A stretch of 64,000 nucleotides of DNA from Geosiphon pyriformis. Taxonomy: Eukaryota; Glomeromycota; Glomeromycetes; Archaeosporales; Geosiphonaceae. Positions 6,863 to 62,721 of this stretch are shown in pieces. The DNA lies in NCBI GenBank assembly GCA_016748015.1, contig JAAOMT010000678.1, positions 662,389-726,388 of the forward strand. Reading direction: 5' to 3'. The first letter of the stretch is position 1, and the number at the start of each line of letters is the position of its first letter. The notes below the pieces were generated by a model. The model was not told the origin of the DNA, did not search any database, and worked only from the letters and a program-made list of their open reading frames with translations. The position numbers and the translations under genes were made by a program.

Positions 6863-8325
6863 ATGAAAGAATTGGTAGAAAACTGGTCATATTTGAAAGA
6901 ACGTCCTGAAAAAACTTTCATTAAATTTCGATTCTTGTTATTATCTCTTTGCGTCATATCAATGTTATTTTGCACATTAATGATAAAAACCTTTTTATCA
7001 CAAAACCACAAAAATAATCTACGAACACTGTACATCTCAGTCTCTAAAAGAAGTCTTTTTTATCATAAGGACTTGGAGACTTCTCTTAATAAAAAAATTG
7101 AAAATCTTGCTAAAATTAAAAATTCACCAGCACAATTTAAAGATTCAACCCTAGTTGGTTCTTTGCCGAAAAATAAATATACTGGGCATTCTAGTCAGAA
7201 ATTACTTATGACTGATGATTTATTTCTTAAAAGACTCGATACAGCTGCGTATTATGCGAGCTTAGCTTATTGCCTTACTGATAGTGAAGATGATAGGGTT
7301 TCAGAGACAATTTATGGTGAGCTCAATGAATATAAAAGGCTTGTATCAATCGTTTTGTAATTTAATGTTCTGTTCCTAAACTCATCGAATTGAATTTTAA
7401 TTTTAGCAAAAGCTCAAATAATAAAAAATGATTTTAAAGAGCATGATATTGTAATGTACATTCACGGAGTTGGCTACAATGATGCCAAAGCATGGAAAGA
7501 CCGAGAATTTAAGTTGATAAAACATCCAAAATTGGACATGAAGATTGATGCCATCTTTTGGGAGCAATGGTCTTTAGCGCATGAAGCGATAGACTCGAAA
7601 ATCATCAGGGCAATAATCGAGTTTTCGAGAGTTTCAAGATCAATAAAAGGGTTCAGTTTAGTGGGACATGGTCTAGGTGCCGGTAAGACTCCTTTGTGTG
7701 TATATTTAACAGGGGAAATTTGGGTTTTTTAAGTATTAAGCTTGTTCTAAAATGTTATTATAAACTTTTTTTGTATAGTTCATGCATTACTAACTGCGTT
7801 AAGTTGGAGTCAATCATCATTTGCAGTAAGATATGCTATTCAAGTCTATTTGTTTGGAATACCTCGTATTGGGGATCAGAAGTTTGCTTCAGCCATCAAT
7901 TCTTTGACAGCAAAAAACATCCAAGTTCAACGTATCAATTATCTGGACGACTATGTTCCACGAATTCCATTGAAACTTTCAAACCCTCCCCTAGTTCATC
8001 CTACAAAAGAATTTTGGATTTCCTCCGACTGTGCTTGTAATGGAAAACCAGAGGTTTACTGGTGTTTTGGTACAATATGGCCTGATGGATATATTGGTGA
8101 AAGTCAGGTATTTTAAATGAAAACTTGAAAATTACACACATTTTAACTTTGATTTGAAACATCTTGGACTCACATTAATTCATCTTGAAAATTTCATTCT
8201 AAAAGGAATGCATAAATAGTCAAACTTCTTTAATGAGTACGGCTCATAATGGACCTTATTTTGGAAATTTCATGAATGATTGCTCGGCAGCTTTGAACCG
8301 TATGAACACATTCATGCAGAATTAA
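6863..8325 (+). CDS. Class 3 lipase-like protein with Ser-to-Gly nucleophile (pseudo-lipase)
   Basis: Four exons: 6863-7316, 7407-7682, 7779-8107, 8206-8325, giving 392 aa. The ATG at 6863 is the first in frame; reading upstream from it finds only a TTG. Residues about 24-44 form a hydrophobic segment after a basic stretch, consistent with a signal anchor (type II membrane) or uncleaved signal. A variable Lys/Ser-rich stalk follows, then the family block YYASLAYCL before intron 1. Exon 2 has YIHGVGYNDAKAWKDREF and ends with the elbow GHGLGAG. The serine of the G-x-S-x-G lipase motif is glycine here (codon GGT, one transition from AGT). Exon 3 keeps the Asp region (LDDYVPRIP) and exon 4 the His region (AHNGPYFG), followed by the late Cys. 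Intron phases are 1, 1, 0 as in all paralogs. It belongs to the Lipase_3 (alpha/beta hydrolase) family. Hydrolysis by the normal mechanism is not expected. It may be a binding or regulatory paralog, or a decaying copy with an intact frame. Confidence 0.9.
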
Positions 8326-9329: not shown

Positions 9330-10616
9330 TTAAAGATTCTGGCAAGTGCCCATGATATAACCAAAATAAGGTCCATTGTGAGCCAACTTCCCCAATTGTT
9401 GATCAGAGTTTCCGTTAATGCAAAACTATTTCAAATTGAAAATAACAAGTTTTAACTTCAAAAAATTTGTTTATGAGCAAAATTTTGAAATTACCTGATT
9501 CTCTTCAATTATACCAGCCTTGTAATTAAGACTCCGTCCTTGGCAAAAATAAATCTCCGTCTCTTTTGGACATTCACATTCTGACTTTATCCAAATCTCA
9601 TGTTCGTGATGCATCAGTAAGTGAGGCTTTTGAATCGGTAATCGGGGAACATAATCGTCTGTATGTGTCACTCGAATCAATGCAAGATCATTTAACAGGA
9701 TCATTTGATTTAGAATTTTTGCTAATTCTATATTTCCCATTCTTGGTTGACCAAAAGTGATGACAAAAATGGGTGGTAAATTTTGGGTCCTCTCAGAAAT
9801 CCAGCTAATTGCCGTCAAGACTGCGTAGACTTTTGCGAATTGAAGAAAGATTGCATGAAACTTGGAAAACTATGTAAAAGTTTTTAAAAGAAAACCCTCT
9901 TCACTTACCGCCTCCCACACTATGGCCGATTACATTTATATTTTGGATCAGATCACCTTTAGTGACCTCCCGAGATAATACTTGATCAAGCCTTTGTCGT
10001 ATATTATCCTTGGCTAGGATAAACTGGGTTTGAAAAACTGTGTCAATCAGGGCATTTTCGAAGGTGGAATGGTTAACCAGATGAAATGGGCGTTTAATCC
10101 ATTCTTCTTGGCTATAGTCCAATCCACTGATATATAAATTGATATAAACTAGTTGTTCACTTAGACGAACAAGTTCTGCTTTCGCTAAAATTAAAAATTA
10201 TTAAGCAAATCATTTCCCCTGAATCTAGTAAACTATAAATCTTTTTAAAGAATTAAATTTATTTTTAAAGTTTTACCACGAATGCCGGGTGCAACCTCAT
10301 CTTCATTTTCATCAAGGCAATAAGCAAAACTCGCTAATCGTGCTGCATTTTCGAGATGAGAAAAAAGTTCTGATTCATTCGAAATACGTATTCTCTGCTG
10401 GTTACCCTCTTCTGAAGGCTCGTTCGCACTCTGAAGAAAACTATTTCATGTTTCATGTGAGTGAAAGAATTTTTAGAATGCTTTCATAAAAATTAATTCA
10501 TTTTACCTTTTCGGAATGTTCCTCTTTATTTTGACCCCAATTGAAATATCGAAAAGATTTAAGAGGTAAAGTGAAACAAAAATACAAATTTTTACTCCTT
10601 TTGTCTTTAATATCAT
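9330..10616 (-). CDS. Class 3 lipase, N-terminally anchored, five exons
   Basis: Exons on the minus strand: 10616-10507, 10440-10277, 10184-9909, 9829-9495, 9425-9330, giving 326 aa. The ATG at 10616-10614 begins a short protein start (MILKTKGVKICIFVSLYLL) with a hydrophobic segment at residues about 8-26, a signal peptide or anchor. An extra intron (10506-10441, phase 2) splits what is one exon in the other family members. It is needed to join the hydrophobic start to the conserved ARLASFAYCLDENEDE block. Exon 3 ends in the intact nucleophile elbow GHSVGGG (Ser codon AGT). Exon 4 holds FGQPRMG and HTDDYVPRLP (Asp), and exon 5 holds AHNGPYFGYIMGTC (His and the late Cys). The full Ser-Asp-His set predicts an active triacylglycerol lipase or esterase on the outer side of the membrane or in the secretory path. 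The stalk is the shortest of the family members here. It is convergent with the gene at 6863-8325. Confidence 0.88.
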
Positions 10617-13600: not shown

Positions 13601-14115
13601 TCAATTCCCATCATAAATTACTCCCCAATTTAATGTCTAGAGGAATTATAAGAAATCAGCATATTGAGATATTTCATGTAATTTCCTTTTCAAAACCTTT
13701 TATTACAGCCCCCATCCTACCAAGAAATTAACTAATACATGTACATGTATTGATTTTTACAGCTTTATTGACTGTTGCTCATTCGATAAAAAAGCCATTG
13801 ATTTTGATAAGGGGCATAATTCAACTTCAACGGTCCGATGATCTTCCGTAGGCTGATTTAGCAATAGGTGTGACAATCCCTTAAACAAGTTTAGAATTTA
13901 CACATAGACAAATAGCAACAAACACAACGCGCCCAATTTAAGGGTAGACCAAAAGGGGATCATCATCGCGTTAACCCCTCCAAATGACACAGTCACCTTG
14001 GTAAATCTTTTTCATTATTCACAATCAACGACTTAAGAGCGAGAATTTCTTGAATACCTATCGTTGCGCTTTTCAAGTAGGCTCCCAAAAAACCGAACGA
14101 TCCCATTTTGCCATA
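10617..14115. other. Intergenic region, no gene recognised
   Basis: About 3.5 kb of AT-rich DNA between a divergently transcribed lipase and the kelch gene. Several minus-strand frames of 60-70 codons near 10825-11246 are low complexity and lack splice context. About 13440-14115 is less AT-rich and probably holds the kelch promoter and 5' UTR. I see no RNA gene or repeat array in it. Confidence 0.5.
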
Positions 14116-16074
14116 ATGATTTCTCTTTTGACACGAACAATCTTTCATTTTTTACTTTTTACAAATACAATTTATGGATATACACCTGTAGGACGTTATG
14201 GACATTCAGCAACACTGATTGGGACAAAGATTTATTTCTTCGGCGGTTTAATAAACGATCAAAATATATCACCAGAACTTTTTTATCTAGATCTGTCAAA
14301 GAATATAAGTACAGCTGATTTAAATTATGTTTCGACGGATTTTTCGATACCTGATGGTATTCAAGGAGTATTTTCGGCAGCGGTATCTGCTGGAATCACG
14401 ACGAGTACCACAATTTTTGGGTATGGAGGGGTTAGTATAGAAAAAGAAGACTTTTTTAAAATTTTTCTTGGAAATGAAAATATAATGCTTTAACTATAAA
14501 GTGGAACTCAATCTCCTTTTAGGAGACAAATGTGGGAAGTATAATTCGTGATCCATTTCAATCACCCAACAATACATTCTTTTCAATTGACACACGCAAC
14601 AGCAGTTCCCCAAGTATATCAATATCAAGACAATCAACAAATGGACCTGGCTCTCGAATGAATCTAAATACAGTGATCGACACAAATGGATACATGTATA
14701 TCTTTGGGGGCTATGATGGAGTATTCAAAGATAGAAGCATGTACATACTTGACACTCGAAATCTTACTTGGAGTATTATACTACGGCCCAATGCTCCTGA
14801 TTTTCTATGGGGCTACACCTCAACCCTCTTGAAAGACGGCCGCATTTTATATATTGGTGGAAACCGCGTTGCCACCGAGAATAACCCGAATCGAGGGACC
14901 GATATGAATATAGTTGAGTTTTGATTCCCAAGAAAGAAAATTTCAATCATTATTCGATCCCTCTGAAAGTATTCAGTAACCTCTTCCTCTTACAATTTAT
15001 ATTTAGATTCAAGCATTTAATACGCTAAATAGTCAATGGAGTCAATTGGTAGGTAACTTTTAAGCTTTAAAAAATAAAAATCATTCTAATTTGATCGTTT
15101 CAATCATATCTTAGGTCGCAACTTCAGATGAAATAATTCCAAGCCGGAGTGGACACACTGCAATTTTATGTAAGTGAGCGGTAATATCAAGTTTAAATTC
15201 CCTCGTTCGATTTTCGAAAAATCGTAATCTTTTCTTTTAATTTCAAAGCCTCTGATGGCAACAAAATAATTATCTATGGTGGATCATTAAATCAAACAAG
15301 GTGAGTAATTAATGTTTCTTGAAAATTTCCAATTTCAAGACTCATAACGATCAGTTTAATTCACAATTTTATTTAGTTCAAATGGTGGAATTGCTGCTTT
15401 GGATATTCCATCCTTTCAGTGGTCATTACCATCAAATCAGAATTTAGGTCCATCAGCTATACCTAATCAACATACTGCTGTACTCTTTAATGATTATATG
15501 ATTATAGCTTTTGGTAGGTCAATACATTTCTGAGCTTTATTCATTCTAAAAAGTCTCAATGGGTTTTCGGTCTTCAGGCAAGAGAAATGACACCTCGAGC
15601 GGTGATCTAAATATTCTCGACATTGCCAATGGAAATTACCAGTGGGTAGATTTCACAGATCGACCCCTACCATCCTCTCAATCCAAAACTACCCTTGAAA
15701 ACTCGTCAAACAGCTCAACAACAGAAGAAAATTCAAGTTCAGAATCATTTAATTCAGCCCCTTCACATAATAATGGCTTGCCTATTTGGAGCATTGTCGT
15801 CATGACGATTTTGGCCTTTATTGTTTTCCTAGTTGCTTTTTTTGGAATACGAAAATACTTCCTAACCCGTCCACATATAACGGATCAACCTACCACATCA
15901 CATATATCTAGTACATCACATATACCTAGTGTTTTTTCCGTTGAAGGTTCTCCTAAATTGCTTAGGGATTCTAATGAAGTGGTTGACAATCAGGTTTATG
16001 TGAATAGACTCACACGGGTAAAATCTTTAAATTGGTTGCCCCAAAAAACTATTGCCAGCTCTTCTAAACAATAA
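14116..16074 (+). CDS. Kelch-repeat protein with signal peptide and C-terminal membrane segment
   Basis: Seven exons: 14116-14430, 14523-14912, 15007-15048, 15115-15169, 15249-15300, 15377-15513, 15578-16074, giving 495 aa. All junctions are GT-AG and keep the frame. The ATG at 14116 opens a hydrophobic signal (residues about 3-20) directly before the first kelch unit (GRYGHSATLIG, then YFFGG). At least five further kelch-like units follow, ending in motifs such as MYIFGGYDG, ILYIGG and IIIYGG, which would form a beta-propeller. A Ser/Asn-rich linker comes next (residues about 360-395). A single membrane segment of about 25 hydrophobic residues starts near residue 398 (IWSIVVMTILAFIVFLVAF) and ends at a basic FGIRKYF. 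A Ser/Thr-rich cytoplasmic tail of about 70 residues closes the protein. The layout predicts a type I membrane protein with an extracellular propeller, probably for protein or ligand binding. No catalytic motif is visible. Large families with this layout are typical of arbuscular mycorrhizal fungi (family knowledge, not tested here). Confidence 0.9.
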
Positions 16075-22614: not shown

Positions 22615-23924
22615 ATGAAAAACAGAAGATTTTGCTTACTACTATCAACATTAGTTTTCTCAACTATAGTGATTCTGATTCATACGCTTCTGAATCAAAT
22701 CAGTCGAAGCTTTTTTCCCATTTATAAGCAGAAAGACAATCAAAAAATCTCGAGTCAACTTGGGATTTTGGGTCAAAAAATATCCGTCCAAAACTATTCT
22801 CGGCCTACAGTCACTTTTTCATTTAAAAATAGCAGCACTAAGTTAAATATCTTTCGCAGGGAAGCTAAAATGATCTTAGCAAATATGAATGAGGAGGATG
22901 AAGGAAAATTTCCTATAGATGATAGACCTATTATGATGAAAAGGTTTAATATTTATGCCCGGTATGCAAGTCTGGGTTATTGTCGACATAGCGGCTTCCA
23001 AATGATTTCCAATGATTTGAGCGGTAATTTTCGAACGTTTTTTTGGCCAATTTTTGATTGCATCCTTTGATAATTGGTTCCAAATTTTCAAAGTTAGATC
23101 ATTCGTACCCTCTGATGACGAAAGGTCACTTTTAGTTTCTTTTCGAACAGCCTCAATATCAAGATCACAATGGATAGAACGAGAATTCAATTTAGTAGCT
23201 TACCCTAGTGTTCCTAATGCCCGAGTTGATGAAAAGTTCTATGATCAATACAGGCTTGTTTCAAGTAAAATAAAAGAAAAAATTACCAAATTGCGAAATA
23301 AATTGATACGTAATTTTATTCTAGTGGGTCATAGTACTGCGGGTGGTAAGAAGTAATATAATGATTTATTTCATTTTTAACTTGATACATTCGAAACTAA
23401 ATACATTTCCACATTTAAGTATACGCTCTATTCTTGGCACTAGATTTGAGTAATACCTGGAAATTCGATAATTTTACAGTCGTTACATATGGTCAACCTA
23501 GAATAGGTAATAAATATTTTGCTCAGCATATAAATACACATTCAAAAATTAGAACCTATCGCCTGACCAACACTGATGACTATGTTCCACGATTACCGGT
23601 ATATGGCGAGAACCAATTAGTTCATCACTCACCTGAATATTGGATCGCTGTCGACTGTGATTGTTGGAGGGGAAAAGTTTATCGTTGCCAAGGCCCAATT
23701 GAAGATAATAAATTTATAATGGAAAGTAAGGTAGAAAAAGAAATCTAAGGTTCTGTTTATGTAATCTTTATTTTCGAAATGCATTCCGATTACTGATAGA
23801 GATGTTTTTTGAATTTGTGTAGAAATGTAACAATAGATACCATTATTTAGGCGATTCGTCTCATTATGGACCCTACTTTGGCGTTACAATGAAAGAATGT
23901 GATCGATTTAATAGTGTTAATTAG
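22615..23924 (+). CDS. Class 3 lipase, N-terminally anchored
   Basis: Four exons: 22615-23023, 23094-23345, 23420-23730, 23823-23924, giving 357 aa. The ATG at 22615 is the first in frame and starts MKNRRFCLLLSTLVF, so residues about 6-26 form the hydrophobic anchor after a basic start. A Lys/Ser-rich stalk follows, then RYASLGYCRH before intron 1. Exon 2 encodes LLVSFRTASISRSQWIEREF and ends with GHSTAG plus the split glycine/valine codon, so the nucleophile Ser is present (AGT). Exon 3 has TYGQPRIGN and NTDDYVPRLP (Asp). Its last codons read ESK where most paralogs have ESQ. Exon 4 encodes CNNRY, then SHYGPYFGVTM with the catalytic His and the late Cys. A complete triad predicts an active secreted or surface lipase. 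It is in tandem with the next lipase (591 bp apart, same strand), which carries a mutated nucleophile. Intron phases are 1, 1, 0. Confidence 0.92.
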
Positions 23925-24515: not shown

Positions 24516-25965
24516 ATGCTAAATATTAATAGTGTAAATTTCCATAGACTAAGACGTTTGGAAATAAGAACACCAAACAATCTTGGAAATAGTGGTCAAA
24601 GATTAAAATTTATTTCAAGAATTCATTTAAGCGTTGTACTTTGCCTTTTGTTTAAATACATTATTCAAGGGGATAGATCTTTAAATGAATTAACTGGTTT
24701 TCCGAGAGTCACCCAAGATCATACGTATAACATAAAAGTCGAAAGATTTTTCAATGTTTCCAATAAAAGGTTTGACTCTATATATAAACAAAAGCGTGAA
24801 ATAATTTCAAGGTTTAGGAATCCGAAAAAATATGAAATCGGCGGGAAACAACAACTTGAGGTTCGAAACATTGGGGATAAAGAGCTTTTGAAGAAATTCG
24901 AAACTTTTGCGCATTATGCCAGTTTAGGTTATTGTCTAAATAAAGATGAAGGTGATAGTATAGCACCAGAAATTAATGGTACCGATCGTTTCCTTACTAT
25001 GACGTTCAGAAGATTCAATAGTCCTCAAACAATAAAATTAATGACTTCTTTTTAAGCTCGAGTAGTTTGGTTTGAAAATCAGCATAAACAATCAGAATTG
25101 ATAATATATTTCGGAGCTAGAGTCTTGAATCGAAATGAATGGCTCAAAAGACATTGGAATTTGATTAAGTATCCTTTAATCGAACACGGGTCTATTGACG
25201 AGGAATTTCTTTCTGAGACAGCGACTGGGGTCAAAGGATTAAAAGATAAAATATTAAAATCTAGAGAATGGATAGAAATCAAGAAAATTTTGCGAATCAA
25301 TCTTGTTGGTCATGGATTAGCCGGAGGTAGGAACTACTGTTTGAAATGGGGTTATTGAATCAAGTGAAAATTTAACGTAAATGATTAATTAATAAGGAAT
25401 AATTTTTTATTTCCAGTATTCGCTGTTCTTTTACAACCGTATTTACAACTTATGTTTTCCCATGCTGAATATTATGTATATACTTATGGACAACCCCGAA
25501 TAGGAGACAAAGATTTTGCCAGAGCTTTGAGCTTACAAAAAAAACTTTTCATATATCGTATCACACATGCTGATGATTATGTTCCACGAATGCCACTTAA
25601 ATTGTCTTTTAGCCATCATCCCAGTGAGTTTTGGATTGAGGCAGATTGTGAATGTAAAATTGAAAAAGTTTACATGTGTTGGGGCCCAATTTTTTCCAGG
25701 GGATATGAGGAAGAGAGTCAGGTATTAAAAAAAAAAAAAAAAAAACTGCAATGATTTATATCTGCCATATCTCTATATCTCGAAAAACTAATATTCATCT
25801 TTTAATTGTCACCACGATATTTGATCTTTGATATTTAAGCTGTGTAACAACCAATATAATAAGTTTGAGGATCTTTTACATGAAGGGTATTATTTTAAAA
25901 AATATATGGGGAAGTGTCCTGAAGATAGAAGTCACCCTAATCCTGATTTGGATTTAAAATTTTAA
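24516..25965 (+). CDS. Class 3 lipase-like protein with Ser-to-Gly nucleophile (pseudo-lipase)
   Basis: Four exons: 24516-24978, 25057-25326, 25417-25721, 25840-25965, giving 387 aa. The N-terminus has a basic stretch (residues 11-18) and a hydrophobic segment at about 34-50, then a long charged stalk and HYASLGYCLNKDEGD. Exon 2 has YFGARVLNRNEWLKR and ends in GHGLAGG, with glycine (GGA) replacing the catalytic serine. Exon 3 keeps TYGQPRIGD and HADDYVPRMP. Exon 4 encodes CNNQYNKF, then LHEGYYFKKYMGKC, so His is kept although the usual H-x-G-P-Y-F is altered to H-E-G-Y-Y-F, and the tail is longer and acidic. It has the second-longest exon 1 of the set. With the GHG elbow and a relaxed His block, it looks like a paralog released from catalytic constraint but still with an open frame and normal splice sites. 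A poly(A) run of more than ten A follows the exon 3 donor inside intron 3. Confidence 0.9.
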
Positions 25966-34856: not shown

Positions 34857-36321
34857 ATGCAGGAATTGCTAGTCCAGGAAACATATTGGGTTTCCAAATG
34901 GTTATTGAGGTTCTGCATTATACTGAAAAAGATGAGAATAAAATCATCGCAAAACCATATTCTTCCCTATGCTATTTTGTTACTCTTGTTTTTCCTAGCG
35001 ATTTTAATTCTTAATCCATTTATTAAAAAACAGGAATCATTATCTCATGAGAATTTACTTAAATACAACAAAAATATAACAAATGAAAATTTTAACAAAA
35101 GTATCAATTCAAAAAATGTGGAAAAAATACCTAGTCGAAACACCTTTCCTTCATTTCAAAATTCACGGTTAAAAACTAGCAGCAAAAGAAGTTTCAAATA
35201 CCATGGGAAAAGTGATGAAGAAAGTTATTATGACGGAGAGGAAGAAGGTTCAATGGAATTGTTAGATCATGAACTTCCCGAAGACCGACAATTTCTAAAA
35301 CGATTCGCTTTGTTCGCCTATTACTCAAGTGATGCTTATTGCCTGACAGAAAACGCTTATAAGGTGGGAGATCATGGAATTTCTGGTAAGATTGACTTTT
35401 AAGCAAGAGAAATTGAAATTTCACAATCTTTTTCTCAAATCTTTGCTTCTTTCATCTTAACAGCAAAAGCAATTCTATTGGCAAACGATGCCAAAGAAAC
35501 TGAATTAATAGTGTATTTCAAAGGCAACAAATACACTCGTTACCAATGGCTCATGAGAAAGTTTGAGCTTATTGAATACCCTTTGATTCCAAATGGAAAA
35601 GTGGACAAGAAATTTTTTGAAGATATCGAATCTGCTGCTTCGGATATTCGAAAACAGGTTTTAAAAAAAGTTCAAGAAGCCGGTGGCTTTAAAAGGATAA
35701 AACGATTCATAATGACTGGACATAGTAGTGGAGGAGGTAAATTAGAAATTTGTGAACCATTTTATTATTTCCTCAATTGATTTCAGCCTCATCCAATTTT
35801 ATGATCTTAATAATTTAGCCTATGCTTTACTTGCATGCCTTAATTTGGATCATCATTGGCGTAATTTTAACCTTGAATGGGAAGTCTACTCCTTTGGTAG
35901 CCCTCGAATAGGAAACCTTGCTTTTGCTGCCACCGTGACCACCCTTGAAAATATTTATTTATATCGCTTAACACACACTGACGACTATGTTCCAAGATTA
36001 CCTCTTATTACTGGCCATGAATATGTCCATACTGAAGTTGAGTTTTGGCTAGAGCCGGATTGTGATTGCACTGGTATTGACAATGTATACGAATGCTGGG
36101 GTCCAGAAATAAGGATGGGTTCCAATACATTCAGTATGGAAAGTCCGGTATGCTTTTCATTGATCAATATTTATTAATGAAAGCAAAAGATTGATCTAAA
36201 AGAGTTTTTCTTATCTTTTGACTCACTATTTTATCAGGATTGTAACAATCGATACCCACTACCAGGAGATGCCTCACACAATGGCCCATATTTTGCAGCT
36301 TTCATGGGCTTTTGCCAGTAA
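34857..36321 (+). CDS. Class 3 lipase, N-terminally anchored
   Basis: Four exons: 34857-35385, 35464-35736, 35819-36147, 36238-36321, giving 404 aa, the longest of the family here. The ATG at 34857 precedes about 35 residues and a strong hydrophobic segment at about 36-55 (PYAILLLLFFLAILIL). An inner ATG at residue 26 would give a shorter start with the same segment. The stalk is Lys/Ser/Asn-rich, then acidic, ending in YYSSDAYCLTENAYK. Exon 2 has LIVYFKGNKYTRYQWLMRKF and ends in GHSSGGG with the nucleophile Ser intact (AGT). Exon 3 has FGSPRIG, an unusual Ser where paralogs have Gln, Met, Ile or Ala, and HTDDYVPRLP. Exon 4 encodes CNNRYPLPG and SHNGPYFAAFMGFC, then stops. The triad is complete, so activity on lipid or other acyl esters is expected outside the cytosol. 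The exon 2 segment FFKGNK/YFKGNK resembles the pseudogene at the left edge, suggesting these two are close relatives. Confidence 0.92.
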
Positions 36322-45300: not shown

Positions 45301-46290
45301 TTACTTGTATAAAGATAAGTTTTATATTGTTCAATATTAAAATGAATAAAAATTTTAGGTATTTTTATATGGCAATTATGTATAAAATTCTTTAGTTAAA
45401 GTTAATACATGTATAAAGGAAATTTATTATTTTTGGGAAATCTACGTTTAAAGAATATCGTGAGTTTAAATGAAAATTTAGATGAGTGGTATCCAAATCT
45501 ATTTATAGAGAACTGGTCACTTACATATATCTATAAAAAATTTTTGGTCAAAGATTTTATCGTAATTTACACGTTTTTAAACAGGTTGCAGATTATAATA
45601 TCATAAGATATAAAAGTATTATGGTTATCCACAGTATGAATTTATATATTCTTGAACAAAGACTTCGGGTGAGACAATTAAGTTTTATTCCGATTCACGA
45701 TCAATATGAATCGAAAGCTTAATTGTTTTCATTGTAATAGATTTTTTCGTTAGACGAAATAAGCTTAACTTGGGTTTCTAGAAAATCCCTAGAAATCATT
45801 TATTCTTTCTGGCTTTTCCAAAAATCTTTACATCATCAGAAAAGGTCAAACTAATCCAACCGTGATTTCCGATATATCCGATTTAGCCGTGATTTATAAA
45901 GGTAAGTGATTAATTAATTTTCTGTTGAAGCCAAGGGGTTGGCAATTAGTCATATTTGTCATATTTGTCATCATTATCTAAGCATATATATATGCACCTT
46001 GAATGGGTGCCGATTCCTCTTATTATGGTTAGGTAAAAAAAAAGATGCTAGTCTTTATCAGACATTTTTGTAAGACCCTTTCTTTTCATTCATGATTCAA
46101 AAATTCTCCTATTGGGCATTCAGAATAAGATTGAAAATTGATATTGTAAGAACATCTTCAGAAAGCCAAAAATTTGATCTGCGTGACAAGTAACTTATAT
46201 AAAAAGCAGTTCACTTATATTTTTAAGAATTTTCAATTTTCAATTTTCATAACAATTAACAATCGTAGAACATTTCTAAAATTTTCAAAA
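36322..46290. other. Ten-kilobase extremely AT-rich gene desert
   Basis: From about 36330 to 45400 the sequence is almost only A and T in long runs, with stop codons in every frame and no reading frame of natural composition. I see no transposase, RNA gene or tandem array of fixed period. A degenerate set of repeated words occurs at about 38850-39170 and is listed separately. Between about 45600 and 46290 the composition returns to normal, giving the upstream region of the HMG-box gene. Confidence 0.7.
38850..39170 (+). repeat. Degenerate repeated segments inside the AT-rich desert
   Basis: The words TTGTATCAA..TTGTATACAA occur near 38865 and again near 39120 on the same strand. Between them GAGCTAATAAATAGTTCT (near 38958) recurs as GAGCTAATGAATAGTTCT (near 39041). 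The order is therefore A-B-B'-A', all in direct orientation. It is probably a remnant of an old repeat. Confidence 0.5.
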
Positions 46291-47049
46291 ATGAATGCCA
46301 ATGTCAACGACACAATATTATCAATAGATTTTCCCACAGAGGAAAATGCTTTGACACTTATAAACCAACTGGATATATTAACACTCTTCAGTCCACAAAT
46401 TCTCGAACCGAAAGAATTAATACCACCACCACGTATAACAGATAATGGTGAAATTAAACCAAAAAGACCGCAGAACGCATTTTTCATATTTCGTCAAAAT
46501 GTCATCAAGCAGGCAAAAAGTCTTGGAATAAAGAATATGCGTCTTATTAGTAAATCAGCAAGTATTCTCTGGCAGAGAGCTAGGCCTAATGAAAAAGATG
46601 TTTACAAAGAAATAGCGGTTAAAGTTTCAGCAGTACATCGAGAACGTTATCCTGGATTTCGATACACTGAAGACCGATCAAAATTAGTTTTTCGTCATTC
46701 CTCTTTACCAAACCGATCTGTTCATAATAACCATCACCATCACCATCACATTAATCATCATCAACACCACCACCGTTCAGAAGAGACCAAACTGCCGGAA
46801 TCAGGGCAAAATTGTCAAGTGAAACAAGATAAAATGCAAGTAAAAAGTCAAAAACCAGAGTTGGATGGAAAATGGGGAACTTTTTTCAGAGGATTAGAAT
46901 TAGCTCCAAATGAACCTAATTCGATAGACTTTACACAGTTGAATGAACACTCGGATTATTATACATTTGAACAATGGATGAATGCGCATGGTTGTCATAA
47001 TTTTAATCCTTATATGAACCTTTCTTCTAACGAGCATCCTGGTATATGA
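46291..47049 (+). CDS. HMG-box transcription factor (MATA_HMG type)
   Basis: Single exon, 252 aa, from the ATG at 46291. Upstream in frame there is no other ATG. Residues about 57-127 form a high mobility group box of the sequence-specific mating-type/SOX class: KPKRPQNAFFIFRQN, then ISKSASILWQRARP and KVSAVHRERYPGFRY. This predicts minor-groove DNA binding and bending in the nucleus. The N-terminal 50 residues are acidic to neutral. A histidine-rich tract lies at about 145-161 and resembles a metal-binding or low-complexity linker. The C-terminal part is hydrophilic with aromatic and acidic residues and could be an activation domain. Arbuscular mycorrhizal fungi have many such genes (family knowledge), so a mating-locus role cannot be assumed. 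The neighbours here are not the TPT and RNA helicase genes that flank the sex locus of Mucorales. Confidence 0.9.
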   Translation: MNANVNDTILSIDFPTEENALTLINQLDILTLFSPQILEPKELIPPPRITDNGEIKPKRPQNAFFIFRQNVIKQAKSLGIKNMRLISKSASILWQRARPNEKDVYKEIAVKVSAVHRERYPGFRYTEDRSKLVFRHSSLPNRSVHNNHHHHHHINHHQHHHRSEETKLPESGQNCQVKQDKMQVKSQKPELDGKWGTFFRGLELAPNEPNSIDFTQLNEHSDYYTFEQWMNAHGCHNFNPYMNLSSNEHPGI

Positions 47050-49970: not shown

Positions 49971-51405
49971 ATGTCAACCATTTTTATTGGAATGTTAAAA
50001 ATATCAAATTTAGGGTTTCCTTTTGCTTGGCTAGTTTTACTTTTTTCCTCGTTAGTTTTGACCTCATGGCTTCTTGACGTGGATGAATATGAAACAAGTC
50101 GTTCATTAAAAAATTTTGATATTCTTCATTTAAAAGAGGCTAGTTCAAAAAACCAAACTCAGATTTTCACAAAAAGAACAAATTATTTCCCGAGTAATGA
50201 ATTGAAGTTTAGTGCCCCTTTGTTTTTTAAAAAAAAGACATTGATTAGTTCAAAAAATGAAAATAAAGGAGGTGAAAAATTCTTAATTACCGATCAAAAT
50301 GATCCTGTATTAAAGGCCCTTTCAAATGCAGCAAGATTAGCTAAATTGGCATATTGCTTAAATGAAGATGAAGATGAAGTGGCACCTGGAATTCTCGGTA
50401 TCTTTTTCAAATAATTTTTGGATCCATGTATTTTACACTATTAATTTTTTATTGCCTCGATGAAATCTTGTTTCCATTTAGTTAAAGTAGAGAAAAACCT
50501 TTATGAAGGAAAAAGTGAACTCAATGTTTATTTCCTTGGTAAATGTATAAAAATTTTCTTGCGACCCGAAAATTCTTTATACCTAATTTAGATTTCCTAA
50601 CATTCATTAGGAATCGATCACAGCCATGAAGGTTGGTTATCAAAAAAGTTTGAGCTTGTGAGGCATCCAATCTTTCACACTGCGATGATTGATAAAATCT
50701 TTCTAAGCTCGTTTAATTTGGCTAGTGAGAAAATTGTAAAAAAAATAGAAGATGCATGGAACAATAATAGCCTTTATAGAATTAATTTGATCGGTCACAG
50801 TGTTGGTGGGGGTGGGTCTTTGAACTTATTTGCTCGTCTTGATGTTTTAATAATAACAGATTGAAATTACCACAGCTGAAAATGTCTCATTAAAATTTTC
50901 AGTTTATGCGGTGCTCACAGCGATTACCTGGGCTTTGAAAAAAACTGAAATGGGTATCAATGTCTTTACTTTTGGACAACCAAGAATTGGGGATTTTACT
51001 TTTGCTCAAATTATAAATCAGCAGTTGATGCAAAATACACGAATTTTTCGCGTTACTCATACCAACGATTATGTGCCACGTTTACCATTAAACAAGAAAA
51101 ATGACATGTTTCATCATGCTTTGGAAATTTGGATCTCGTCTGATTGTGATTGTGATGGAAAAGAAATGGTATACAGGTGTTATGGCCCTACAGAACTATT
51201 CCCGATGGGCTTGGGTTTAGAGAGTCAGGCAAGTAATATTTTAATCAGATTGAAAAATAAAATTTTGCTTTTAACTCTAATTTTTTTATGCCTACAAATA
51301 TCCTTTTAGAACTGTAATAATCAATACTCACCAGAGAATTTAGGTACAACCTCACACTTTGGCCCTTATTTTGGATATACAATGAGACCTAAATGCAAGC
51401 TGTAA
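49971..51405 (+). CDS. Class 3 lipase with a GC-AG intron and an extra intron
   Basis: Five exons: 49971-50397, 50482-50538, 50611-50811, 50903-51228, 51310-51405, giving 368 aa. The hydrophobic anchor is at residues about 16-35 (AWLVLLFSSLVLTSWLL). The stalk leads to LAKLAYCLNEDEDEVAPG. The usual second exon is split by an additional phase-1 intron (50539-50610) right after VYFLG. Skipping it would put a stop in the frame. The elbow is GHSVGG with Ser (AGT), the Asp block is HTNDYVPRLP and the His block is SHFGPYFGYTM with a late Cys, so the triad is complete. The last intron starts with GC (AG/GCAAGT at 51229) rather than GT. It is the only non-GT donor I found in this family. Using the GT 4 bases further on would end the protein after two residues and lose the His. 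If the intron were retained, a 29-residue hydrophobic tail lacking the His would replace the end. Confidence 0.9.
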
Positions 51406-56721: not shown

Positions 56722-58122
56722 TTATATGGGAGCAGGTCCCATTTTATATCCGAAATAAGGGCCATAATGGGCCTCACGTGAAAGAGATTGAACTTGATTG
56801 ATGCATTCCTGAATTTCAATAAAAAATTTAATTCAATTTAATTTAAAATGTTTTTTTTTGGAAATTTAAAAAAATGATTCGATTGAAATATTTACCTGAT
56901 TTTCTAAAATGTCACCAGCGTTAAAGTCTTTTACTATTCCATTACATTCAAAGACACCTGACGACTCGTCACAGTCACAATTTTTTTCATTGATCCAAAT
57001 TTCTAATTCAGGATGTCTCATTTGAGAATCTTTATGAAGTGTTGGTATAACGTCATTCGCGTAAGCGACACGATAAACCTTGAGATATGATTTTTCTGCT
57101 TTATTTATTAAACCGGCTAATACAGTATCACCGAATCTCGGCATTCCAAATGTGTATACGACAAATTGATAAGTTGGGAATTCATGGTGCCAAGTTAATG
57201 CCGCCAAAATCGAATAAACTGAAATTTCAAAAAATATGACAGAAATTTTTAGTTTATTATTAAAGATATAAAAGTTTCTAACTCGTTTATTAGAAAATGA
57301 ATTAAATTGTCTTTCTGTTACATACCACCTCCTGCCCCATGACCCGCAAAATTTATTGTGGGATTCTCAACATTTTGAAAGTGTTTCTTAGCATCTTGTA
57401 TCTTTTCTTTAAGTTGAGAGACAACCAATGAAAATTGATTCCATAAAATTGTATCAACTTTTGCCTCGGGAAAGTTTGGATGTGGATTAAGGTGTATTTC
57501 TCGATTGAACCAACGTTTTTCTGTAAGTGTAGGCCCTCGTATGTAGACCATCATTTCCATCTCATTTCTAGGGCTTTGTACAACTTCTACTTGACCTTTT
57601 AGAAAAAAATTGTTAAAGAAGAGAATGTTTAGTTCACATTATCAAAAAAATTAAAAATTAAAAAAATTTTGAATATAGAAAAAGAGGAATAGGCTTTTAT
57701 CAATTACCATAAACATCTCGAGAGAGTTTTTTTGTTTTTCCTGAATAAGCTAAATTGGCATACAAAGCTGCCCATTGTAGTCTATCCAACAAAAGACTTT
57801 TTGATAAAATAAGTTCAATTTTTTTTCCAGAATGAGGTACACTTATAAAGTCTGGAGGTGTGGCTTCTATCGATTGTTCCTCGAGTAATTCAACATTCTC
57901 TCGCTTAAAAACGAATCCCGACGAAGGATTTTTGATATTTAACCAATTTAAATTTGTCCGTGTTTTTACAATTTCAGGCAAAGTATAAGCAGCTGAAGAT
58001 ATCGATTGTAATATGGAGCTATAAAGTAAAAAGACGATAAAAAGAGTCGTGTGTTTTAAAATGAAACCATGAATTCTTTTATTAAATTTAGCAAAACTCG
58101 GAGATTTTAAAGAGTGAATCAT
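56722..58122 (-). CDS. Divergent class 3 lipase-like protein with Ser-to-Gly nucleophile
   Basis: Four exons on the minus strand: 58122-57708, 57595-57326, 57218-56896, 56808-56722, giving 364 aa. The ATG at 58122 leads to a hydrophobic segment at about 28-48 (KHTTLFIVFLLYSS and following), possibly a cleavable signal because SSAAY follows. Exon 1 ends with YANLAYSGKTKK, so the Tyr-Cys found in all seven other complete genes is Tyr-Ser. Exon 2 has YIRGPTLTEKRWFNRE and ends in GHGAGGG, with Gly (GGG) for the nucleophile. Exon 3 has FGMPRFGD and ANDVIPTLH where the others have DDYVPRLP; Asp is kept. Exon 4 has AHYGPYFGYKMGPAPI, so His is kept but the late Cys is also gone. The N-terminal and C-terminal cysteines that pair in Rhizomucor lipase are therefore both missing, while the inner pair (CDCDES, then ECNG) is kept. 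This is the most divergent paralog and is unlikely to be a normal lipase. Confidence 0.9.
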
Positions 58123-61365: not shown

Positions 61366-62721
61366 TTATAGAGGAGCTAGGGGCAAAGGATTTGGACACT
61401 CTCCCATTACATAATTGAAATATGGTCCTTTATGTGAGAAATCACCCAAGTAGGTATATTTATTGTTACATTGCTATGTAATAATACCAAATAAATATAA
61501 TTTTAATACGGCATATTGAATTGAATGTGAAAAAAAAACGCTAATTCATCAAAGAAATTTATTTACCTGGCTTTCTATCAGAAGGCCTCTTTCAATCGGT
61601 CCTAAACACAAGTATACTTCTTCAGCATTTTCGCATTCACAATTGATAAATATCCAATGCTCACATCCAGAATGAATGAAAGGCATTTCGGTTCCACGCA
61701 AGGGTAATCGGGGGACGTAATCATCCGTGTGTGTTACACGAAGAACATACAAATTCGGGATTCTATTGATTGTGGTGGCCAAATTTCTATCACCAATTCG
61801 AGGCGCCCCATATGTGTAAACAAAAAAGGGTGTCGGTATCAACTCTCGTGCCCATTCAGCCGCCGATAATACTGCATAAGCTTTCCGAATTCGAAGTGGG
61901 AATCGTTGACATGCGTGTTGAACCAAAGAAAATCAAAATAAAGTTAAAAGAGCGATGTTCTAAAGTGGAACTCTTACTAACCTCCAGCAATGCTATGTCC
62001 CACAAACGTTGCTCTTTTGATAAGATTTGGCGCTTTTAAAGGTGCTATTTTATCTATAATTTTAAGCTGAATAGCTTCTTCAACCGCTTTGAATTGATTA
62101 TAGAATATTTTATCTATCTTAGAATTCGGGAATTTGGGGTGATCTATTAGTTCGAATTCTCTGTCCAACCATTCAGCTCTTGTGAGGTCATTGGCTCTAA
62201 AATACACAACTAGGTCAACCTTTTGATCCGGAAAAATTTGGATCAAGACCGAGACTAAATAATTTGTATTTTCCATCATTAAGATTGAAGGCTAATCGAT
62301 ATCAAAAACCATAAAATCTATAACAATAATTACCCATGATTCCAAACCCGACCCCATCCGTACTTTCCTCCAAACAATATGCTATGTGAGCATAATATGC
62401 AAACTTTTTTAATAAATAAAGCGTCTCATCATCATCTTCGACTGTTATGAGATATTTTCGGTCTCCATCCGGAAGCGAAGCTTTTTTCGAAAAGTATGTG
62501 CTTGAATTAGCAATGAAACTTGTTGGGAAAACAACCTCAGAAACTTTATCATGTCTAAATTGATGATAAGATGTATTTTTCCAAATTGCTCTCATGAAAT
62601 GAATAATGATAAAAAATATTAAAAATGAAGCAATTGTCATCAAAGAGAGAGTGCCTTTTTGTTTTTGATGGCTTCGCCTGAATAAAGTTTTCAGGGCGTA
62701 TATTTTAATCCAATAGTTCAT
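61366..62721 (-). CDS. Class 3 lipase, N-terminally anchored
   Basis: Four exons on the minus strand: 62721-62334, 62254-61982, 61880-61567, 61473-61366, giving 360 aa. The ATG at 62721 gives a basic start and a hydrophobic segment at about 26-44 (SLMTIASFLIFFIIIHF). The stalk is followed by LITVEDDDE and YYAHIAYCLEES. Intron 1 has a possible nearer acceptor (CGATTAG, exon from 62295), but that leads to a stop. The TTATTTAG acceptor at 62255 keeps the frame and aligns with paralogs. Exon 2 has VVYFRANDLTRAEWLDREF and GHSIAGG with Ser (AGC). Exon 3 has TYGAPRIGDR and HTDDYVPRLP. Exon 4 has CNNKYTYLGD and SHKGPYFNYVMGEC, then a Pro/Leu-rich tail. The complete triad predicts an active lipase or esterase in the secretory path or at the surface. 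Its elbow GHSIAGG is the same as in the left-edge pseudogene. Confidence 0.92.

Follow-up and report, generated by a model that had tools for sequence, protein, structure and literature searches.

The window, that is, the whole stretch of 64,000 nucleotides that was analysed, is part of a 124.7 Mb genome, has a GC content of 26.7% and harbours nine loci of the class-3 lipase type (PF01764); exons 2 and 3 are open in eight of them. One of these is an intact gene on the minus strand, which extends from an ATG at 58122 to a TAA at 56722 and is the lipase locus of the window that was modelled from end to end. According to this model, four exons, separated by three introns that all obey the GT-AG rule, encode a product of 364 amino acids. 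Exon 1 (57708-58122) contributes an N-terminal hydrophobic segment (residues ~19-45) and the ...YANLAY... region, while exon 2 (57326-57595) ends with the nucleophile-elbow motif GHGAGG at 57327-57344 (GGT CAT GGG GCA GGA GGT G, followed by the intron start GTATGT). Exon 3 (56896-57218) contains the catalytic-type Asp284 (..ANDVIP..), and exon 4 (56722-56808) contains His350 (AHYGPYFG), the presumed catalytic histidine. The position of the nucleophilic serine of class-3 lipases (PF01764) is occupied by Gly225, whose GGG codon lies at 57338-57336 on the minus strand.

Membership of the gene in the class-3 lipases is indicated by the PF01764 profile together with homology over the elbow and the Asp region: the open frame of exon 3 scores 30 bits against a cut-off of 22, and that of exon 2, at 17.7 bits, lies below this cut-off when taken alone. 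PF00151, tried as the lipase family, gave no match, its controls being silent too, and the family was assigned to PF01764. A PDB search returned 24 sequences at E values up to 0.01 (best 6.3e-7); the solved fungal class-3 secreted lipases 5gw8, 3uue (secretory lipase family 3), 1dt3 and 4tgl belong to the same family, and their elbow and Asp align. In two alignments the GHG lies opposite the GHS of solved family-3 lipases, and Asp284 is aligned to the Asp of 5gw8 as well as being located at the Asp position of the family. The PDB alignment ends before His350, which is taken as the probable catalytic His from its place in the conserved H.GPYF motif. In comparison with the solved class-3 lipases, the gene is distinguished by glycine at the nucleophile position, by the N-terminal hydrophobic stretch and by a conserved CDC...C, the cysteines of which follow the Asp region in the family. 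The hydrophobic stretch and the conserved Cys residues suggest a secreted or lumenal protein, and the family as such is probably secreted or membrane-anchored.

Of the features expected of an active serine lipase, Asp and His are thus present, while the nucleophilic Ser in GxSxG is replaced (GHGAG). On the other hand, the gene is free of the frameshifts, stops and broken splice sites that mark a pseudogene. Judged solely by the missing nucleophile, its product is predicted to be catalytically inactive. A DNA search of the assembly retrieved one full copy of the gene, all other matches being at most 72 bases long; hence, no Ser allele of it came to light in the assembly.

Glycine at this position is not peculiar to a single gene, as three of the eight window genes with open exons 2 and 3 carry GHG and five carry GHS, in agreement with the sequence-only reading that preceded this analysis. 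That reading had also contrasted the GGG codon of the gene at 58122-56722 with GGT and GGA in the other two GHG genes and had given the serine codons as AGT or AGC, and both statements hold. GGT is found in the GHGLGA paralog at 7664-7681 (plus strand) and GGA in the GHGLAG paralog at 25308-25325 (plus). AGT occurs four times, namely in the GHSVGG paralog at 9910-9927 (minus), the GHSTAG paralog at 23327-23344 (plus), the GHSSGG paralog at 35718-35735 (plus) and the GHSVGG paralog at 50793-50810 (plus), and AGC once, in the GHSIAG paralog at 61983-62000 (minus). The paralog at 50793 is the nearest row by path to the gene at 58122-56722 (38% over exons 2-3), and it displays an apparent extra intron within exon 2 (50580-50810, plus). 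The ninth lipase copy, located at 1-700 on the minus strand with GHSIAG at 251-268, contains an in-frame stop and frame changes and is probably a pseudogene. Two other open frames lie amid the lipase cluster: an HMG-box frame at 46150-47049 (plus; PF00505, 32.8 bits, cut-off 25.4) and a Kelch-like frame at 14005-14493 (plus), which is matched by several kelch models at or below their cut-offs.

Since GHxxGG is immediately followed by an intron in the modelled genes, a census of the nucleophile residue by motif pattern was feasible for the entire genome, using the pattern GGNCAYNNNNNNGSNGSNGG and, as a control, the same pattern read backwards. With any residue allowed at the third position, 467 matches were obtained genome-wide as opposed to 29 in the reversed control. 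The sequence-only reading had proposed to count GHG against GHS lipases across the genome, and this count yields 322 pattern matches with Gly as third residue (4 in the reversed control) and 52 with Ser, comprising 44 AGY and 8 TCN codons, neither of which occurs in the control. Given the ratio of 322 to 4, the GHG motifs of the window are not chance occurrences. Such matches may include pseudogenes and chance hits and are not equivalent to independent events, and genes lacking the exact motif escape the census, as in the case of L018, L025 and L028. The latter form a subclade (100/100) with GDGLGG, GVGLGG and GEGIGG, respectively, in which the His preceding the nucleophile is replaced and the catalytic-type Asp is kept. 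Among the first 100 of the 467 matches, listed in contig order, 76 have Gly, 12 Ser and 12 another residue (5 Ala, 2 Asp and one each of Phe, Tyr, Ile, Cys and Asn). Glycine is the majority state among the pattern matches, and the window represents a Ser-rich corner of the genome. L006 and L020 seemingly belong to a different lipase-like subfamily, in which GHSLGA retains the Ser (open frames of 350 and 381 amino acids).

Splicing of exons 2 and 3 yielded 91 fragments, of which 50 have Gly, 34 Ser, 3 Ala and one each Cys, Asp, Phe and Tyr at the nucleophile position; identical sequences were counted once, and ten exon-3 matches in which exon 3 was incomplete, or exon 2 or the acceptor was missing, had been excluded beforehand, some of their loci being represented by another model. 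The 50 Gly fragments use every one of the four glycine codons (GGT 23, GGA 17, GGC 6, GGG 4), so that codon identity is weak evidence of the age of a replacement. AGY accounts for 44 of the 52 Ser pattern matches at the nucleophile versus 279 of the 861 Ser codons in the 91 fragments, nucleophile codons included. Such an excess would result from A/G transitions between the Ser and Gly states or from an ancestor that already had AGY.

A maximum-likelihood tree with the nucleophile masked was constructed from 89 paralogs, L055 and L096 (<110 amino acids) being omitted from the 91 fragments. Sampling was non-random, as L001-L030 were recruited through their resemblance to the Pfam model and L031-L089 through the motif, and L090-L109 were chosen for being Ser genes. 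On this tree the Gly label changes 18 times (17-19 in bootstrap trees; mean of 29.5 when shuffled), and at least 11 changes are forced by starred branches. Parsimony, rooted on seven GHSLGG lipases, places Ser at the root, and the 21-step reconstructions contain 8-10 Ser-to-Gly and 4-5 Gly-to-Ser changes, counts that rest on one tree with many weak deep branches. Moreover, monophyly of the 49 Gly rows is rejected (p-AU 0.00015). The eight window genes all fall within a Ser-rich clade of 23 genes (99/97), and a single clade of its six Gly genes is likewise rejected (p-AU 0.0056), a value that is weakened because the six were named after inspection of the tree. Taken together, these results support the view that the nucleophile changed between Ser and Gly many times throughout the genome. 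The earlier reading had posed one old inactive clade and repeated selection for glycine as alternatives. Repeated change is supported genome-wide, yet the two are not exclusive because Gly-rich clades also exist, and for the three window genes themselves the decision is weaker.

With respect to these three genes, it is conceivable that they share one Ser-to-Gly change, a historical explanation that is compatible with any function discussed below. Their union in one clade is tolerated with exons 2-3 (p-AU 0.18) and becomes borderline (p 0.056) when exons 1 and 4 are added, in a tree of 10 rows that has no starred branch and in which the gene at 58122-56722 sits on a long end branch. Poor tree support, which the sequence-only reading had named as one of the points on which its proposal could fail, is indeed encountered for these three genes. 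The gene at 58122-56722 and the paralog at 7664 are acceptable as sisters with exons 2-3 (p 0.52, with a lnL 0.64 higher than the free tree) and pair at 89/87 with exons 1 and 4 added. In the latter data set, however, trees that join the 25308 gene to one or the other of this pair are disfavoured (p 0.0195 and 0.0187), and the 25308 gene itself has the GHxxAG form in common with the Ser paralogs at 23327 and 61983; a single origin is furthermore rejected for the clade's six Gly genes and for the 49 Gly rows sampled. One event for the whole trio is therefore considered improbable. The gene at 58122-56722 and that at 7664 may share one change, with a separate one probably having occurred in the 25308 gene, which amounts to probably two and possibly three Ser-to-Gly changes in the window, one change being the reading that this weak test would also accommodate.

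Changes in the opposite direction are exemplified by L057 (C96:232664), a GHSLGG gene with an AGT codon. When the codon was masked in a tree of genomic DNA, the GHG gene L083 (C96:371212) emerged as its sister (91/95), within a five-row clade (99/99) that comprises four GHG genes. The simplest reading is a recent return from Gly to Ser. Parallel losses of Ser around L057 keep some room as an alternative, because the 91/95 branch is unstarred and the next row out, L093, also has Ser. L057 and L083 constitute a close natural GHS/GHG pair on one contig.

Selection was assessed by codon models (IQ-TREE) in ten gene sets, six of them all-Gly, three all-Ser and one mixed, the gene set favouring open frames by construction. 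Omega amounts to 0.041, 0.091, 0.132, 0.214, 0.282 and 0.557 in the all-Gly sets and to 0.073, 0.106 and 0.296 in the all-Ser sets. The mixed set, consisting of the gene at 58122-56722 and the paralogs at 7664, 50793 and 9927, gives 0.086, a set average that includes the branch of the gene itself. All six all-Gly sets fit better than with omega fixed at 1, by 5.4 to 82 lnL units. Among the listed Gly-Gly pairs, NG86 ratios lie between 0.13 (saturated) and 0.75. The catalytic-type Asp is invariant, being present in 48/48 Gly genes and 33/33 Ser genes with that column. The His is retained in 44/48 Gly genes whose exon 4 could be inspected (including L029, read by eye as PHLGPYFG; L028 lies outside the count), with Asn in L023 and L049 and Phe in L035 and L036. 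Among Ser genes it was seen in 16 of 18 (L014 read by eye), with Met in L092 and Asn in L099; this count leaves out 15 rows, namely 13 short pieces as well as L021 and L022, in which such a motif was not found.

These data bear on the possibility that the GHG genes represent recent, dispensable duplicates in which Ser was lost by chance and which are en route to pseudogenes. Broken lipase copies do exist, such as the ninth copy of the window at 1-700 and L053 and L054 with a seemingly disrupted exon 3; in addition, omega is relaxed to 0.557 in the youngest GHG set, and several young Gly-Gly pairs evolve fast (NG86 0.44-0.75). However, omega is below 1 in all six all-GHG sets tried (2dlnL at least 10.8), and Asp and His are retained at the above frequencies although the paralogs are only 28-50% identical to the protein of the gene at 58122-56722. 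Moreover, glycine dominates in place of a spread of residues among the first 100 matches listed. Hence, the GHG genes do not look decayed as far as their sequences tell, and neutral decay is judged to be quite unlikely.

Another explanation assumes a different chemistry, in which the Asp-His dyad and the oxyanion hole would serve as a general base towards a bound ligand or an activated water molecule, with glycine making room. It is favoured by the similar strictness of the dyad in Gly genes (48/48 Asp, 44/48 His) and Ser genes (33/33, 16/18), by the similar mixture of L, V and I after the nucleophile in both groups, and by partial loss of the dyad in genes with other residues at the nucleophile position: L041 (Phe) and L042 (Tyr) have Arg for His, and L058 (Asp) has Ala for Asp. 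Esterase relatives with new chemistry are also known in the plant carboxylesterase-like cyclases, which nevertheless replace the His instead, as far as the parts of PMC10873640 consulted describe them. It is also at odds with L053, which keeps the dyad with Asp at the nucleophile position, and with the Gly genes L023, L035, L036 and L049, which lack the His. A search for a new nucleophile found no S/T/C/D/E/H/K/Y/R/N/Q/G residue whose frequency in Gly genes exceeds that in Ser genes by more than 30 points, and thus no new conserved candidate. We regard this chemistry as having a low probability. Three columns differ in the opposite direction, being commoner in Ser genes, most strongly a Thr that precedes the Asp by two positions (55% of Ser versus 8% of Gly genes), a column that possibly varies with the nucleophile or reflects shared ancestry. 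The idea of an invariable loss of the dyad in genes with neither Gly nor Ser at the nucleophile position was dropped: L011 (Ala) does have Asn for His in addition to the cases above, but both Asp and His are kept in L003 (Cys), L037 and L048 (both Ala) and the apparently broken L053 (Asp).

The gene at 58122-56722 is probably best described as a selected pseudo-lipase with an intact pocket, belonging to a hugely expanded family whose nucleophile has switched repeatedly. On chemical grounds, Gly225 would preclude formation of an acyl-enzyme, and selection would maintain the fold, Asp284, His350 and the pocket despite the lost Ser. A folding requirement could, however, also account for the retention of Asp and His in GHG genes, and the four Gly genes without the His speak against this reading. 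The nucleophile of alpha/beta-hydrolases is located in a strained turn, the nucleophile elbow, in which glycine is well tolerated. A description of the elbow as a sharp turn, with no mention of strain in the parts consulted, is given in PMC7034887. As soon as hydrolysis by a given copy had become dispensable, Ser might have been replaced by Gly, which the elbow tolerates, and the resulting GHG protein might then bind a lipid or ester ligand or modulate active paralogs, in either case without Ser-based cleavage.

Composition would have favoured another outcome. The GC content at third codon positions (GC3) is 28%; a change from AGY to Gly is an A-to-G step against the AT-rich composition, while a change from AGY to Asn is a G-to-A step with it. 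Nevertheless, Gly outnumbers Asn by 76 to 1 among the first 100 of the 467 matches listed, and the tree contains no Asn gene. The predominance of Gly despite this composition suggests that this very residue was selected for after hydrolysis had become dispensable.

With Asp and His retained, one A/G transition can connect the Ser and Gly states. A bolder version of the pseudo-lipase reading, which we put forward tentatively and with considerable doubt, is that the nucleophile constitutes a reversible evolutionary switch, turned off (Gly) or on (Ser) by an A/G transition, while dyad and pocket are held by purifying selection because the off state has a job of its own. Such a job could, for example, be the capture of host-derived acylglycerols without cleavage or a dyad-based chemistry. 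If this were true, about 300 serine-less functional lipase relatives, as estimated from motif-pattern matches, would exist beside about 50 serine-containing ones in one genome.

Glycine in place of the nucleophilic Ser has been reported for insect yolk proteins, which are lipase-like as well but belong to a different lipase family, comprise few genes and serve a storage role. A further alpha/beta-hydrolase that lacks the Ser nucleophile and hydrolase activity is ABHD5/CGI-58, which acts as conserved activator of another lipase, according to the parts of PMC5314347 consulted; it is, however, a conserved animal protein of another subfamily, while in the family described here the changes recur among hundreds of paralogs. 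The plant carboxylesterase-like cyclases and the GID1 receptors likewise have esterase folds that took on new roles once the triad had been damaged, and MtHID2 has Gly for Ser (PMC10873640, in part). In these proteins, as portrayed in the sections of that source consulted, the His is replaced by Tyr or Phe (cyclases) or by Ile or Val (GID1), whereas in the present family Ser is lost and Asp and His are mostly kept.

A large lineage-specific expansion of Lipase_3 likewise occurs in Entomophthorales, with 348 copies in E. muscae and a median of 66 across genomes, and the parts of that report consulted contain no mention of Ser loss (PMC11105155). An entomophthoralean origin, considered on account of this expansion, is disfavoured though not disproved by a search of the genome that yielded no match to trypsin. 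The FAS-I domain PF08354 was not found in the genome search either, although its control matched in only 1 of 14 genomes (Corynebacterium). Loss of FAS-I has been reported for Glomeromycotina in the consulted parts of PMC10629195, and the undetected FAS-I together with the AT-rich genome fits an arbuscular mycorrhizal fungus. In planta expression of two putative triglyceride lipase transcripts is mentioned in PMC4771724. Within the open-licence literature, the consulted parts of PMC8778642, PMC8786786, PMC10234402, PMC10629195, PMC4771724, PMC5293756, PMC10512289 and PMC9453076 mention neither an expansion of PF01764 nor a Gly-for-Ser replacement.

The family offers one genome with hundreds of paralogs in which loss of the same nucleophile was repeated and apparently followed by its return. 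To our knowledge, pseudoenzymes have mostly been described as one-off, one-way losses. This set of paralogs allows one to ask with what frequency enzymes are switched off and for what reason, whether the process is reversible, and what the Asp-His pair does without Ser. Furthermore, gene counts of PF01764 that are taken as counts of lipases can overestimate the lipolytic capacity several-fold in such a genome. If the organism is arbuscular mycorrhizal, the family would reside in a fungus that depends on host lipids; a role in handling these lipids would be our guess, and a function in lipid binding or lipid gating would bear on the symbiosis.
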